IMG/VR virus record: IMGVR_UViG_3300025889_000966
Location: 1-23,527 of that record
Length of the DNA: 23,527 nt
Source: a virus
Direction: 5' to 3' (one strand)
The notes beneath the pieces were generated by a model. That model ran no database searches and was not told where the DNA came from. It worked only from the letters and a program-made list of their open reading frames with translations. A program made the position numbers and the translations under genes. Positions 8,290 to 17,174 of this stretch are shown here, one piece after another (position 1 is the first letter of the stretch; the number at the start of each line of letters is the position of its first letter).

Positions 8290-9213
8290 ATGCTCGGTTT
8301 CTCCCCATTAGCCTCTGCGCCCCTAGCGGATGATGGGGTAATCGCAGGGGTCGGCGTTACAATTGACTCCCCAGCGGCAGACATCACCTTAGCCGTATCC
8401 GCCCCGAGCATCTCGCTTGGTGCCGCCGTTCTCTCCCCTGCCGCTGACACCACGTTGGCCGCTCAGGCTCCTGCGGTCAGCGCTGGCAAGTCTGTCTCGA
8501 TCCCTGCCGCCGACATCACGTTGGCCGGTCAGGCGCCGCTCATCTCGATCACCACGCAGGTCGTCGTCCCTGCGGCAGACATAACCATCGCGGCCAACGC
8601 CCCTGCGATCAACGCCGGTAAGAGCCTTGCAATCCCGGCGGCGGATGTTGCGATTGCAGGGTTGGCGCCGGCGATCAACGCAGGCAAGCGGATCGATGCG
8701 CCGGCGGGCGACATCGGCTTTGGCATCCTTGCGCCGCAGGTGCAGAGCGGCAAAGCGCCCGTCGTCCCTGCCATCGATTTCGTCATCGGGCCGCAGACGC
8801 CGGCGATCAGGGCCGGCAAATCCATCGCGCCTCCTGCCGCCGATGTAGCCCTGGCCGGCACCGCACCGACGATCTCGACCGGCGTTGCCATCTTCGCGCC
8901 GGTTGCCAACATCAATGCGGCTCCTGTTGCGCCGACTGTTTCGACAGGCGCGAGCGTGTCGGCTCCTGTCGCGGCGGTTTCCATAGCTGGCATCGCGCCG
9001 ACGATCTCGACAGGCGCTTCCGTCTCGGTCGGATCTGTCAGCATCACCATCGCCCCTGTCGCCCCGGTGGTCACGATCAGCTACAGAAAGGCTGTTCATG
9101 TGACGGGGATTTCTGCTAATATCGTGACTGTGAACGCCACCCCGAACGATGCCGAGATCGACGTAACGACGCCCAACATCGTGGTCGTGAGCAAGCAAAA
9201 CGAGGCCGCCTGA
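8290..9213 (+). CDS. 22-residue-repeat virion-associated protein
   Basis: A 307-residue protein, poor in charged residues, with GGAG upstream and a start four bases after the previous stop. The N-terminus (MLGFSPLASAPLADDGV) resembles the short GF-x-PL leader of several alphaproteobacterial phage tail-associated proteins. Residues 27-268 are eleven copies of a 22-residue unit, (I/V)PAADITLAGQAPAISAGKS-like. The C-terminal 40 residues (ITGISANIVTVNATP-like, IVVVSKQNEAA) leave the pattern. Alternating strand-forming and Pro/Ala/Gly positions suggest a repetitive beta structure such as a rod or solenoid. It could be a fibre shaft or a tail surface protein. There is no enzyme motif. The stop overlaps the next ATG (TGATG). 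Confidence 0.6.
   Translation: MLGFSPLASAPLADDGVIAGVGVTIDSPAADITLAVSAPSISLGAAVLSPAADTTLAAQAPAVSAGKSVSIPAADITLAGQAPLISITTQVVVPAADITIAANAPAINAGKSLAIPAADVAIAGLAPAINAGKRIDAPAGDIGFGILAPQVQSGKAPVVPAIDFVIGPQTPAIRAGKSIAPPAADVALAGTAPTISTGVAIFAPVANINAAPVAPTVSTGASVSAPVAAVSIAGIAPTISTGASVSVGSVSITIAPVAPVVTISYRKAVHVTGISANIVTVNATPNDAEIDVTTPNIVVVSKQNEAA
8368..9093 (+). repeat. Eleven tandem 66-bp coding repeats
   Basis: The period is exactly 22 codons for all eleven units by my reading (PAADI--A---AP-I--G----). The best-conserved positions are Pro2, Ala3, Asp5, the AP pair and a Gly. Units 9-11 drift to PVAxVxIA. Confidence 0.85.
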
Positions 9214-13818: not shown

Positions 13819-13856
13819 CACCAGCCCCTCAGTTCGCCTAGTTGAGCCTCGGTCAT
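13818..13856 (-). pseudogene. 12-codon mini-ORF, truncated copy of a neighbouring gene start
   Basis: It reads MTEAQLGELRGW. The first nine residues are identical to the start of the winged-helix-like gene at 13612 (MTEAQLGEL), with near-identical codons. It has its own good ribosome site (GAGGAGATCGAA before the ATG), overlaps the transporter stop (ATGA) and the next gene's ATG (TGATG). It looks like the remnant of a duplication followed by deletion, possibly kept as a coupling leader. Confidence 0.6.
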
Positions 13857-14365
13857 TTCGATCTCCTCATCCAATAGATGACAGCCGCGCCGAGGAGGCT
13901 GAACCATACTTTGCCAACGATCTGGCCCGCGATGAAATCAAGAGAGCCGAAAGCCAAGAACAAGAAGACGGCGCTGTCTATCACCGCGCCAACAGCCCCA
14001 GACAACGCTACGGCCAACGCGAGCCGGCGGCGCGCAAGAGGGGCATACACCGCGAAGTCCGCGAGTTCTGAAAGAAGGAATGCAGCCACGCTGGCGATCA
14101 CGATGGCCGGCGGCGAGATGCCGGCAGATATGATAGCGCCGACAGCGATGGCAGCGAGTGCATACCGCGCGCCCAGTGTCTGATGAACGGCATCACGAAG
14201 GACCAGCGCGGCTCCGACCATTAGGACGCCAGATGGCGCCATGAGACCAAAGCCGACCGGGATCAAACATGGCCCATCTGGGACACAAGTCCCTACGTTG
14301 GCGATCATCCAGTTGGCGGCTGGTATCGTCGCGATGTATCCGGCTAGTGCAGCATATCGTTTCAC
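13853..14365 (-). CDS. VUT-family membrane protein, queuosine-precursor transporter-like
   Basis: I start at GTG 14365, which has GGGAG upstream and overlaps the preceding stop (GTGA), giving 170 residues; ATG 14401 would add 12 residues but lacks a ribosome site. Five or six hydrophobic helices and the segments APSGVLMVGAALVLRDAVHQ, AFLLSELADFAVYAPLARRR and IDSAVFLFLAFG match the VUT (DUF165, YhhQ/QPTR) family, which imports queuosine precursors such as preQ0 and preQ1 in the inner membrane. The landmarks RD-x-hQ, SE-aDf-vY and D-x-F-L are present. Its partner, coupled by overlap, is a TGT/DpdA-like protein, so it probably supplies the 7-deazaguanine base. The transporter family is confident; the exact substrate is inferred. 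Confidence 0.8.
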   Translation of the reverse strand: MKRYAALAGYIATIPAANWMIANVGTCVPDGPCLIPVGFGLMAPSGVLMVGAALVLRDAVHQTLGARYALAAIAVGAIISAGISPPAIVIASVAAFLLSELADFAVYAPLARRRLALAVALSGAVGAVIDSAVFLFLAFGSLDFIAGQIVGKVWFSLLGAAVIYWMRRSK

Positions 14366-15042
14366 AGCAGCATCTCCCTTTGCTGAGGTCTCATTTTCCA
14401 TCGTATCGGGTTCTGAATGGCATCTATTCTTCGAGCCATTCTTTCTGGGCAGAGGTCGTCATCCTTGTAATTGCGCGCGACGTTCACGCTGTCGGCGCTG
14501 GCGAAGGGCCATCTGTCGCCGCATAGCGCAAGTCCGCGCAGCATATGCACCCAAGGCAACTCACCGCGAGAAGCGAGCGCGTTGAATGCTTCATCAACCC
14601 GACGCTCCCATATCTCAGAGCCTACTTGCCAATATGCCTTAGAACTCCCGAAGCATATTTTAGCGAAGCCCATGCCGCATAGATCAAGAAGATGCTCGAT
14701 GGGTTCGTGCAGGTGCCAAACAACGGCGGCCAAGCCTCTGGTGTGAGGCCATTCGGATATCAGTCGCAGATTGTCATCAACTTCGCCATTTATGACATCC
14801 GGCACAACCGCCCAGTGTGGATGTCCCAAGCGTGGCTCGACCCAAGCATAGAACTTCGACCAATCCCCAGCGTCCTTGGCGTCACGCAGGCTGAAAGCAC
14901 CATTATCCCACATCACCGATTGACCATGAGCAAGACACCAGTCGCCATCTTCTGGTCTGGCGAAGCTGACGCAAAAGCATTTGCCGGCCATCTTTAGCAG
15001 TTCAGATCGCGGCGTCAGTGGCGTGCCATGATAGTGCAGCAT
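14362..15042 (-). CDS. TGT/DpdA-like protein, candidate DNA deazaguanine transglycosylase
   Basis: ATG 15042 is chosen over an ATG 36 bases earlier because it overlaps the upstream stop (TGATG) and has a GGGGG site; the protein has 226 residues. It belongs to a phage family I know with blocks YHGTPLTP, QSVMWDNGAF (D46), WAVVPDV (D82), VVWHLHEP, CFGSSKAYW, WVHMLRGL and FASADSVNVARN. The repeated beta-strand/Asp blocks and the order DNGAF, PDV, GSS, H-ML, SADS fit a TIM-barrel of the tRNA-guanine transglycosylase superfamily, with D46 and D82 as candidate base-recognition and nucleophile residues. DpdA enzymes of this superfamily insert 7-deazaguanines into phage DNA. Coupling to a VUT transporter supports this. 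A function as an unrelated TIM-barrel enzyme cannot be excluded. Confidence 0.55.
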   Translation of the reverse strand: MLHYHGTPLTPRSELLKMAGKCFCVSFARPEDGDWCLAHGQSVMWDNGAFSLRDAKDAGDWSKFYAWVEPRLGHPHWAVVPDVINGEVDDNLRLISEWPHTRGLAAVVWHLHEPIEHLLDLCGMGFAKICFGSSKAYWQVGSEIWERRVDEAFNALASRGELPWVHMLRGLALCGDRWPFASADSVNVARNYKDDDLCPERMARRIDAIQNPIRWKMRPQQREMLL

Positions 15043-15203
15043 CACCACCCCCACGAGATGATGACCGCCGCGAGCCACGGCACCACGGTGATGCCGAGGG
15101 CGCCGGCCGCCGCACCTGCCAACAGGCAGCGCAGGCGGGGCTTCGTCGGGTCTGCTTTCAAGTTCTCGAAGTGCTGTGCCATTCTGCCAAGATCCTCACG
15201 CAT
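15042..15203 (-). CDS. Small single-span membrane protein
   Basis: ATG 15203 has GGAGG eight bases upstream and overlaps the upstream stop by 8 bases; 53 residues. Residues 1-24 are charged (MREDLGRMAQHFENLKADP) and the rest is hydrophobic (CLLAGAAAGALGITVVPWLAAVIISWGW), probably one or two short membrane passes. The unrelated longer frame upstream is a shadow of the next gene. It lies just upstream of the deazaguanine pair; a link is not shown. Confidence 0.55.
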   Translation of the reverse strand: MREDLGRMAQHFENLKADPTKPRLRCLLAGAAAGALGITVVPWLAAVIISWGW

Positions 15204-15477: not shown

Positions 15478-15626
15478 GCTTGCTCTCCCAGCTTGCTTTT
15501 GAGGACGAGAATGTCGCGGTGCATCTGTAGTTTGTCGAGCGCCAACTCGGCCACCTTCTGCTCAAGGCGGGCGATCTCCGAACGCTGCTTGGCGACCTTG
15601 CTTTTGAGGATGTCGATCTCGGTCAT
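15474..15626 (-). CDS. Small coiled-coil protein (50 residues)
   Basis: This short gene runs from ATG 15626, overlapping the methyltransferase stop (TGATG), to TGA overlapping the next ATG (ATGA). The 50 residues are one heptad-patterned helix (ILKSKVAKQRSEIARLEQKV, ELALDKLQMHRDILVLKSKL). A 14-base direct repeat, cttgcttttgagga at 15492-15505 and 15597-15610, encodes LKSK at both ends, an in-frame duplication 35 codons apart. Function unknown; the coupling on both sides and lack of internal stops support it. Confidence 0.65.
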   Translation of the reverse strand: MTEIDILKSKVAKQRSEIARLEQKVAELALDKLQMHRDILVLKSKLGEQA

Positions 15627-16873
15627 CACATCACGCTCCTGATGAATGTCGCGGCGACTTGCGGGACGATGGCATTGCCGTAACCCCGCAGTCGTCCCAC
15701 GCGGGCGGGTAGCCCATGAGCCAGCGGGAATGTGCCGGGTTCAACTGGCCGCCACCGCTCATCGCGGCAGAAGAGCCAGTCAGCATCTCGCCAGAAGCCG
15801 TTAGTCGGGCGGGGCCATGCGGCGGCAGATGCGACTTGTCCCCAAGCTGATTGATCGTAACCGTCGTCATGCTCTCCTGTGTGCCCTTCTTGCCGTTGCT
15901 GCGGTTCTGGTAACCCCTCCTGGCCTCTTCCGCTTCTGGCGTCGGCCAGCCCGCCATCGCCGCTCGCTGCGGCAGAGGAATGCCCGTGTCCTGCGGCCTG
16001 ATCGTCCCGTTGCCGCGCGATCCGTCCTGCGCTGTCGGCGTCGGCCAGCCGGCCATCTTGCCCATCTGCGTCAGGCTGACGCCGGTCATCCCCTCCGTGA
16101 TCCCCGATCCGCTGCGCTCCCCGTCCGAGGCCGCTGGCGTCGGCCAGCCCGTCATTTTTTCCTGCATCCGGCGCGATGGCTTCCCCAACATCGCCTTCGC
16201 CATTTCTGGCAGTGGTGCCTGCGATCCCGTGTCTGTCGTCGTCGGCGTCGGCCAGCCTGTCATTGCTGCCGTCAATGCCACCGCTGGATACGGTGACGTG
16301 GCGAACTTGGCCTGCCGATACTCCAGCGATCCCCGGTCCAGATTGACATCCGCCACTTGCGGCGTCGGCCAGCCGCTCTCCGACGAACCAGAGCCGCTGT
16401 CTGATATGCGGCGCGCCGATGCCCGCAGCGCACAGATCTGCCGCCCCGATGGCGTAGCCCGTGGCTTCCATGTCAGCACATACAAGGTCGAGCCAACCGA
16501 GGCCGTCCTTGCTCGCAACTTGCTCTCCAAAGACGATTGCAGGCTGGCACTGGCTGATGAGGTGGTGCCAATGCGGCCAGAGGTGCCGCTCGTCAGCAAC
16601 CCCCGCTCTTCTGCCTGCCGCGCTGAAAGGCTGGCACGGACAGGATCCCGTCCAAACAGGGCGGTCGTCGGGCCATCCGGCGAGGCGCAAGCCGAGGCTC
16701 CAGCCGCCGATCCCTGCGAAGAAGTGGCATTGAGTGTATCCACCCAATCTATCTGGGTCCACGTCTCTGATGTCGGTCTCATCCACATCTCCATCCGCGA
16801 TCAAACCGCGCTTGATGAGTTCACGCAGCCACGCAGCCGCCTTCGGGTCTAGTTCATTGTAGTAGGCTCTCAT
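15626..16873 (-). CDS. C5-cytosine DNA methyltransferase
   Basis: A 415-residue protein, ATG 16873 overlapping the upstream stop (ATGA). The start [20 protein letters not shown] is typical of a phage/alphaproteobacterial Dcm group. Motif [12 protein letters not shown] (51-61), motif IV with catalytic Cys in SCPCQPFS (C80), motif VI as GEQV (E117; canonical ENV), motif [16 protein letters not shown], and motif [16 protein letters not shown] are present. Between about residues 167 and 335, where the target recognition domain would lie, the sequence is an odd low-complexity stretch with five LADA units. It would methylate cytosine in phage DNA against host restriction. Nearly the whole gene is also open in a second frame (WPTP ORF), which probably explains the odd middle. 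Confidence 0.88.
15631..16782 (-). CDS. Overlapping-frame WPTP-repeat protein nested in the methyltransferase gene
   Basis: I start at ATG 16782 because GGAG lies six bases upstream, which the ATG at 16794 lacks; this gives 383 residues in a different frame of the same strand as the methyltransferase. I recognise the blocks [26 protein letters not shown] then [25 protein letters not shown], and near the end [38 protein letters not shown] and [10 protein letters not shown] as a protein family often predicted in phages and metagenomes, of unknown function. Five GWPTP-A-D units occur at the DNA repeats that also give LADA in the other frame. No enzyme motif is visible. Translation is not proven, but the long frame, good ribosome site and conserved family blocks argue for it. 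Confidence 0.65.
15938..16374 (-). repeat. Five copies of GGCTGGCCGACGCC, dual-frame coding repeats
   Basis: The + strand copies of ggcgtcggccagcc are at 15938-15951, 16037-16050, 16136-16149, 16244-16257 and 16361-16374. Spacings are 99, 99, 108 and 117 bases, all multiples of three, so the phase is kept in both frames. They encode LADA in the methyltransferase frame and GWPTP in the nested frame. Confidence 0.9.
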
Positions 16874-17061
16874 GCAACCAGCCCCAACTGCGCCGCCTTG
16901 CGACCGCGCAAATACCAGCCGTAACCAACCGGCTCAAACTCCCCGTGCCGCATGTAGCTGGGGACGCTGTTGCAGTGGCCCTCGCGCTGGTCGCGCATCC
17001 CGTCGTGATACGCGCACTCGGCGTAGAAGTCGGGGAATGTCAGGCTGTCGATCTTGGTCAT
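16870..17061 (-). CDS. Small hypothetical protein, first gene of leftward operon
   Basis: ATG 17061 has GAGGAGAGACCGA upstream and gives 63 residues; the longer frame contains the promoter and is rejected. The sequence DFYAECAYHDGMRDQREGHC, then PVGYGWYLRGRKAAQLG, shows a short Tyr/Arg/Gly-rich basic protein with conserved-looking blocks but no family that I recognise. It lies directly after the predicted promoter, and its stop overlaps the methyltransferase ATG. Possibly an early expressed DNA- or RNA-binding or host-takeover protein; unproven. Confidence 0.6.
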   Translation of the reverse strand: MTKIDSLTFPDFYAECAYHDGMRDQREGHCNSVPSYMRHGEFEPVGYGWYLRGRKAAQLGLVA

Positions 17062-17104
17062 CGGTCTCTCCTCTGTGGGCTTTGCCCGTTGCTCTATGAG
17101 AACC

Positions 17105-17132
17105 ACCATACAGCGTCCAGCGGCGCAGTCAA
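17105..17132 (-). promoter_or_regulatory. Sigma70-like promoter of the leftward operon
   Basis: On the minus strand, TTGACT (17132-17127) and TATGGT (17110-17105) are separated by 16 bases, five of six and four of six to consensus. The predicted start lies near 17098, 37 bases before ATG 17061, whose leader holds GAGGAGAGA. It lies in a 164-base gap between divergent genes, one of the longest gaps in the window. Confidence 0.6.
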
Positions 17133-17174
17133 CAGTCATTTATCTGTCCTGCGAAAAAAATTGCACGCAGCCCG

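Follow-up and report, generated by a model that had tools for sequence, protein, structure and literature searches.

A phage C5-cytosine methyltransferase gene whose second reading frame probably encodes the recognition subunit of the same enzyme

Why should a phage gene for a DNA methyltransferase remain open, over almost all of its length, in a second reading frame of the same strand? The question is raised by a locus on the minus strand of a viral sequence of 23,527 nucleotides (IMG/VR record IMGVR_UViG_3300025889_000966, positions 1 to 23,527), the whole of which is referred to here as the window. The initial annotation of this DNA had claimed a dual-frame gene, and both open reading frames (ORFs) are present, at 15626–16873 and 15631–16794. 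Our analysis makes it highly probable that a single DNA (cytosine-5) methyltransferase, split into two polypeptides, is encoded here, with the recognition subunit overprinted on the catalytic subunit.

The first ORF, the alpha frame, encodes a C5-cytosine methyltransferase catalytic polypeptide of 415 residues (15626–16873). The nested, or beta, frame is open from the ATG at 16794 and its likely start is the ATG at 16782, giving a protein of 383 residues (15631–16782) that we propose as the DNA-recognition subunit from its match to phrog_1008, the overlap in related loci and the selection acting in this frame. As was noticed at the outset, this ATG has its own GGAG, a Shine–Dalgarno-like sequence read directly at 16789–16792, 6 bases to its 5′ side. 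The nested start is fixed in the close relatives L001, L002, L003 and L004, because a TAG stop immediately precedes the homologous ATG.

The alpha protein matches phrog_363 (E = 3.8e-82) and PF00145 (E = 2e-13), the Pfam match being limited to the part from motif IV to motif VIII; motif I and motif X were seen in the alignment, where the motif columns are invariant. Motifs I, IV, VI, VIII and X of a C5-cytosine DNA methyltransferase are all found on this chain, so that the description of motifs I–VIII and X as intact is borne out by Pfam and the alignment. Motifs I–VIII (HFFAGIGG ... GSCPCQPF ... GEQV ...) occupy 16382–16732 and motif X 15653–15703. The AlphaFold2 (AF2) model of alpha matches the M.HaeIII and M.HhaI structures in the Protein Data Bank (PDB). 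Its large domain and last helix are confident, with a predicted local distance difference test score (pLDDT) of mostly 80–97 up to residue 170 and a confident helix at 404–414 in motif X, and the pLDDT is below 50 for most of residues 175–347. Between motifs VIII and X the chain is of low complexity, just as the initial annotation had described the place where a target-recognition domain (TRD) should be, and it is predicted to be disordered; the alpha frame holds no motif IX (position-specific scoring matrix (PSSM) score of −3.8). Since alpha lacks the motif IX and TRD that canonical PF00145 enzymes have between VIII and X in the same chain, we class it as part of a split enzyme and not as a canonical monomer. 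Where alpha is LADA-rich and of low complexity, the nested frame carries an array of five WPTP modules of 33–48 residues (15814–16371), of types that recur elsewhere.

Whether the nested frame is really coding can be judged from its stops and from its pattern of change. An earlier count of zero stops over the homologs was set aside because the ORF span had been chosen as stop-free; loci picked by the methyltransferase protein alone and canonical controls were used instead. In 80 loci picked in this way the nested frame is stop-free in 74, with 9 stops in 24,667 codons compared with 1008 in the third frame, a difference far larger than chance would give. Among the controls, canonical C5-methyltransferases with an in-frame motif IX have 4–14 stops in the +1 frame and no LNP..LMG block, whereas those without motif IX have 0–3 stops and mostly possess the block. 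The scattered stops that had been proposed as the sign of a spurious frame are thus a property of the canonical enzymes. Synonymous shuffles that preserve the methyltransferase protein and its codon use were compared with the real sequences for 74 pairs. Nested identity is 0.487 against 0.313 in the shuffles over motifs I–VIII and 0.620 against 0.316 over motif X, higher in every one of the 74 pairs in both regions, and 0.252 against 0.166 over the modules, where it is higher in 70.

The codon-position rates, given for methyltransferase positions 1/2/3 and calculated from independent pairs (an all-pairs version was also computed), are 0.153/0.120/0.428 before or outside the overlap, 0.169/0.129/0.328 over motifs I–VIII, 0.318/0.147/0.108 over the modules and 0.140/0.094/0.198 over motif X. 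Methyltransferase position 1 is nested position 3, and its free variation over the modules means that the nested frame is the conserved one there. A comparison of the window with the relatives nearest to it shows the same shift. At four-fold sites the fraction of comparisons that differ is 0.659 outside the overlap, 0.302 over nested residues ~81–132 and 0.157 over a nested motif-IX-like block (15697–15750). This block is the best motif-IX PSSM site of the nested protein, aligns with an in-frame block of mycobacteriophage proteins described below, and has alpha motif X beginning under its end. The drop in four-fold variation also marks a conserved N-terminal element of the nested protein, a helix and a beta hairpin lying over alpha motifs VI–VIII (16414–16557), which forms the only block of pLDDT ~80–91 in the nested AF2 model. 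By these sequence comparisons both frames are conserved as coding. The shift of the wobble position, the suppression of synonymous change and the identity above shuffles are the purifying selection on the nested frame that had been suggested as a test, and together with the openness of the frame they support the view that there are two real overlapping proteins here.

The nested protein matches phrog_1008 (E = 8e-41) and also PHROG 31772, both labelled ‘DNA methyltransferase’. The description of the phage proteins in which its blocks recur as being of unknown function is therefore slightly off. No Pfam match was found for the nested protein, family searches gave no HNH family match, and the profile of the nested family has no match in the PDB. 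Its nature is indicated by mycobacteriophage relatives. In L326, L328 and L333, motifs I–VIII, 2–4 LPTP modules, the block L-[AN]-P-A-F-S-E-W-M-M-G-W-P-A-G-W and motif X all lie in one frame, and in Jarcob gp70 motif VIII, the modules, motif IX and motif X form a separate gene following gp69, which has motifs I–VI. The nested-family profile finds the single-frame mycobacteriophage proteins with E-values of 1.5e-8 to 1.4e-6, aligning over the modules and the motif-IX block, with zero matches to reversed sequences. PHROG 1008 covers both the nested and the single-frame forms, the single-frame proteins matching PHROG 363 and 116 as well, and PF00145 extends along L333 from residue 1 to 314 of 324. 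In the mycobacteriophage module region the catalytic-frame rates are 0.154/0.087/0.312; with the wobble here at catalytic position 3, it follows the frame that holds the modules.

On this profile evidence, the nested modules and motif-IX block are homologous to the part of single-chain C5-methyltransferases that runs from the TRD to motif IX. Because modules and a motif-IX-like block stand in one frame between VIII and X in the mycobacteriophages, the nested protein is predicted to consist of a TRD array and motif IX, together with an extra helix–hairpin element, also conserved, at its N-terminus. L326, L328, L333 and Jarcob gp69/gp70 resemble the window in their homologous modules and motif-IX block and differ in that their array and motif IX are read in frame with VIII and X, the +1 frame holding only the short N-terminal element and a first LPTP module. 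This partial overlap (L326 2792–3157 and similar) lies over motifs IV–VIII and has 0 stops in 486 codons. Of the earlier proposal that the nested protein is a specificity or partner subunit, the idea of specificity is favoured by these relatives, while physical partnership and activity are predictions.

The arrangement is widespread. The nested protein was found in 196 phage records by tblastn, and alignment scans with it gave at least 587 confirmed relatives in IMG/VR and 86 in bacterial genomes, of which 80 were kept. The nested frame overlaps the methyltransferase at the same frame offset in 199 of 203 related loci, the others being truncated, decayed or shifted, and none of the 203 has a free-standing nested gene. 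Homologous loci are also present in phages N15 (gene 58) and epsilon15 (cytosine methylase). Most records annotate one of the two ORFs; both are already annotated in Xanthomonas phages PhiXhv-5 and -28 and in Escherichia phages K1H and fTaEco01 (‘C-specific methylase’ or ‘DNA cytosine methyltransferase’, with ‘Mte8-like protein’). The same overlap with an LNP/LSP...MG-x-P block was observed at ~49–55% GC in Paenibacillus phage Bloom (L288), Lacticaseibacillus phage R23.9 (L324) and a Porphyromonas phage (L325), the hosts being Gram-positive and Bacteroidetes. In L033, L034, L194 and L285 (Krischvirus LF73P4) a single indel redistributes the parts of the gene between the frames, and in L033, L034 and L285 the nested N-terminus and the alpha C-terminus are in one frame; these indels could be sequencing errors or real rearrangements. 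EBPR siphovirus 2 (L037, 1635–4130) has an 840-residue methyltransferase in which an intein-like insert (CFPAGALVLTKRGY...VVHN) splits motif IV between PC and CQPF.

In the split enzyme proposed here, the alpha frame would provide the catalytic large domain, motifs I–VIII and then X being joined via a long passive linker, and the +1 nested frame would provide the small domain, made up of the conserved N-terminal element, motif IX and, between them, the ~38-residue WPTP modules acting as TRDs. Assembled from both chains, the enzyme would methylate phage DNA at one or more sites determined by the modules, probably to counter host restriction. We infer that both chains are translated and assemble, that the modules recognize DNA, and that the enzyme is multispecific and acts against restriction, the last two points on the basis of what is generally known of phage multispecific methyltransferases. 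Several observations weigh against this picture. The nested start is at exactly this ATG in less than half of the homologs. The motif-IX PSSM score of the nested protein does not reach significance on its own (18% of unrelated ORFs score equally high), and hhalign of the nested family against canonical C5-methyltransferases found nothing. The nested AF2 model is of low confidence outside residues 80–127, so that the chain is not confidently folded by itself, and a fold search with this model against the PDB gave no match. In the two-polypeptide enzyme M.EcoHK31I the TRD is predicted in the large subunit (PMC3404938), whereas in the window it is the nested frame that is conserved between VIII and X. 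Finally, expression, nested peptides and activity are predictions made from sequence.

The evidence bears differently on the other explanations. The nested ORF could be a by-product of GC-rich coding and conserved motifs, with only the methyltransferase made: the region is GC-rich (median 0.63 over the homologs), which lowers the frequency of stops, and part of the nested conservation lies over the conserved motifs VIII and X. Yet nested identity exceeds that of the synonymous shuffles in all pairs over motifs I–VIII and X and in nearly all over the modules, the wobble shifts to the nested frame in the modules, and isolates of ~50–57% GC stay open where canonical methyltransferases of 40–60% GC do not. 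Taken together, the codon-position rates, shuffles, synonymous-site suppression and canonical controls lead us to reject the by-product as scarcely credible. It is unlikely, but less so, that both proteins are real and that the nested one is separate, for instance an inhibitor, an anti-restriction factor or a toxin, borrowing the locus without being a subunit. Such a protein is allowed for by the fact that assembly is itself a prediction and by the extra conserved N-terminal element, for which no counterpart was identified in canonical enzymes; it leaves unexplained why alpha lacks motif IX and the TRD exactly where the nested frame exists, and why the modules and motif-IX block are found in the catalytic frame of the mycobacteriophages. 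A fused product, with the catalytic frame connected to the nested TRD and motif-IX frame through programmed ribosomal frameshifting, would be in keeping with the indels of L033, L034, L194 and L285, which change the frame of gene parts. The order I–VIII, TRD, IX, X would, however, take two shifts, and the nested ORF possesses a start of its own, which in close relatives immediately follows a stop, making this very improbable.

Along the array there are five copies of the 14-base repeat GGCTGGCCGACGCC, as the initial annotation had reported. Read from the sequence, copies 1 to 5 lie at 16361–16374, 16244–16257, 16136–16149, 16037–16050 and 15938–15951, their first bases on the minus strand (16374, 16257, 16149, 16050 and 15951) being spaced by 117, 108, 99 and 99. 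The repeat gives LADA in the alpha frame and GWPTP in the nested frame at the same place. It keeps both frames in register and exchange there would therefore be harmless to both; recombination may occur at these repeats. We found 534 modules in 167 genes, 1–6 per gene with a median of 38 residues; counts per family are rough, since single-linkage clustering put several types together in the largest cluster (309). Module families recur across different genes and phages at differing positions, as expected if modules are exchanged. The chances seem to us evenly balanced that what is overprinted in the nested frame is a target-recognition array that recombines, in which ~38-residue modules are swapped between phages, perhaps via GGCTGGCCGACGCC boundaries that suit both frames, to give a multispecific methyltransferase, and that the array and motif IX have differed in frame between phage lineages, so that one enzyme domain changed reading frame in evolution.

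Around the locus, a small gene listed among the ORFs upstream (16870–17139, minus strand), for which no PHROG match was found, overlaps the alpha start by 4 nucleotides (ATGA), which suggests translational coupling. Two further minus-strand ORFs in the window, at 14362–15078, matching PHROG 887 (queuine tRNA-ribosyltransferase, E = 9e-34), and at 13853–14401, matching PHROG 4899 of unknown function, are possibly DNA or tRNA modification genes neighbouring the methyltransferase. Elsewhere (8290–9213, plus strand) the window encodes a 307-residue protein of ~22-residue repeats (PAADITLA-type), without a PHROG match and with long ORFs on the opposite strand.

If the split enzyme is real, gene callers, by picking one frame, have left hundreds of ‘DNA methyltransferase’ genes of phages and prophages annotated with only half of the enzyme, and the protein so chosen may be inactive or misread when expressed alone. 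The family would also be a large natural data set on overprinting, with one domain of a known enzyme in different frames by lineage, and module swaps would allow a direct test of the recognition array throughout a whole class of phage methyltransferases.

How does this compare with known systems? The second polypeptide of M.EcoHK31I is reportedly read in another frame inside the gene for the first, and a second chain in an overlapping alternative frame is what is found here. Multispecific C5-methyltransferases of Bacillus phages (SPbeta group) have an array of ~40-residue recognition modules between VIII and IX, in frame. The window is like them in its array before motif IX and unlike them in that their modules are in frame; the recognition role of the modules here is putative. 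The small domain of M.HhaI and M.HaeIII, which holds the variable region and motif IX, lies as an insertion between VIII and X (PMC3404938). M.EcoHK31I (YGGCCR; Lee, Kam and Shaw 1995, as described in PMC3404938) is a C5-methyltransferase of two polypeptides, alpha and beta, with motif IX on the smaller, and so sets an experimental precedent; compared by description, its large chain is like that of the window in having I–VIII and X without IX. No record of that name appeared among the hits listed. For a motif IX on the second chain here, the argument is less the PSSM score than the place of the block before motif X in the single-frame relatives. The selection data put the variable region on the nested chain, unlike the prediction for M.EcoHK31I. 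M.AquI, a naturally split alpha/beta enzyme, likewise has motif IX and part of the variable region on its smaller chain (PMC3404938). Its split is a simple cut, the small chain holding motif X as well, whereas in the window motif X stays with the catalytic polypeptide and the two coding sequences are interleaved. The methylase of mycobacteriophage ShiLan contains a hidden HNH endonuclease read out of frame (PMC11855218), and so resembles the window in having a second protein out of frame inside a phage methylase gene. There, however, it is a mobile insert; an out-of-frame homing insert of this type was rejected for the window, where no HNH family match was found and the overlap spans the methyltransferase core motifs, as it does in 199 of the 203 loci. 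Two-chain C5-methyltransferases are thus already known. Our searches of the open PMC literature turned up no account of such an overlap in phages, the records carrying separate annotations such as ‘Mte8-like protein’, and what appears to be new is a widespread phage family in which a putative recognition array is overprinted on the catalytic gene, in a frame that differs by lineage.
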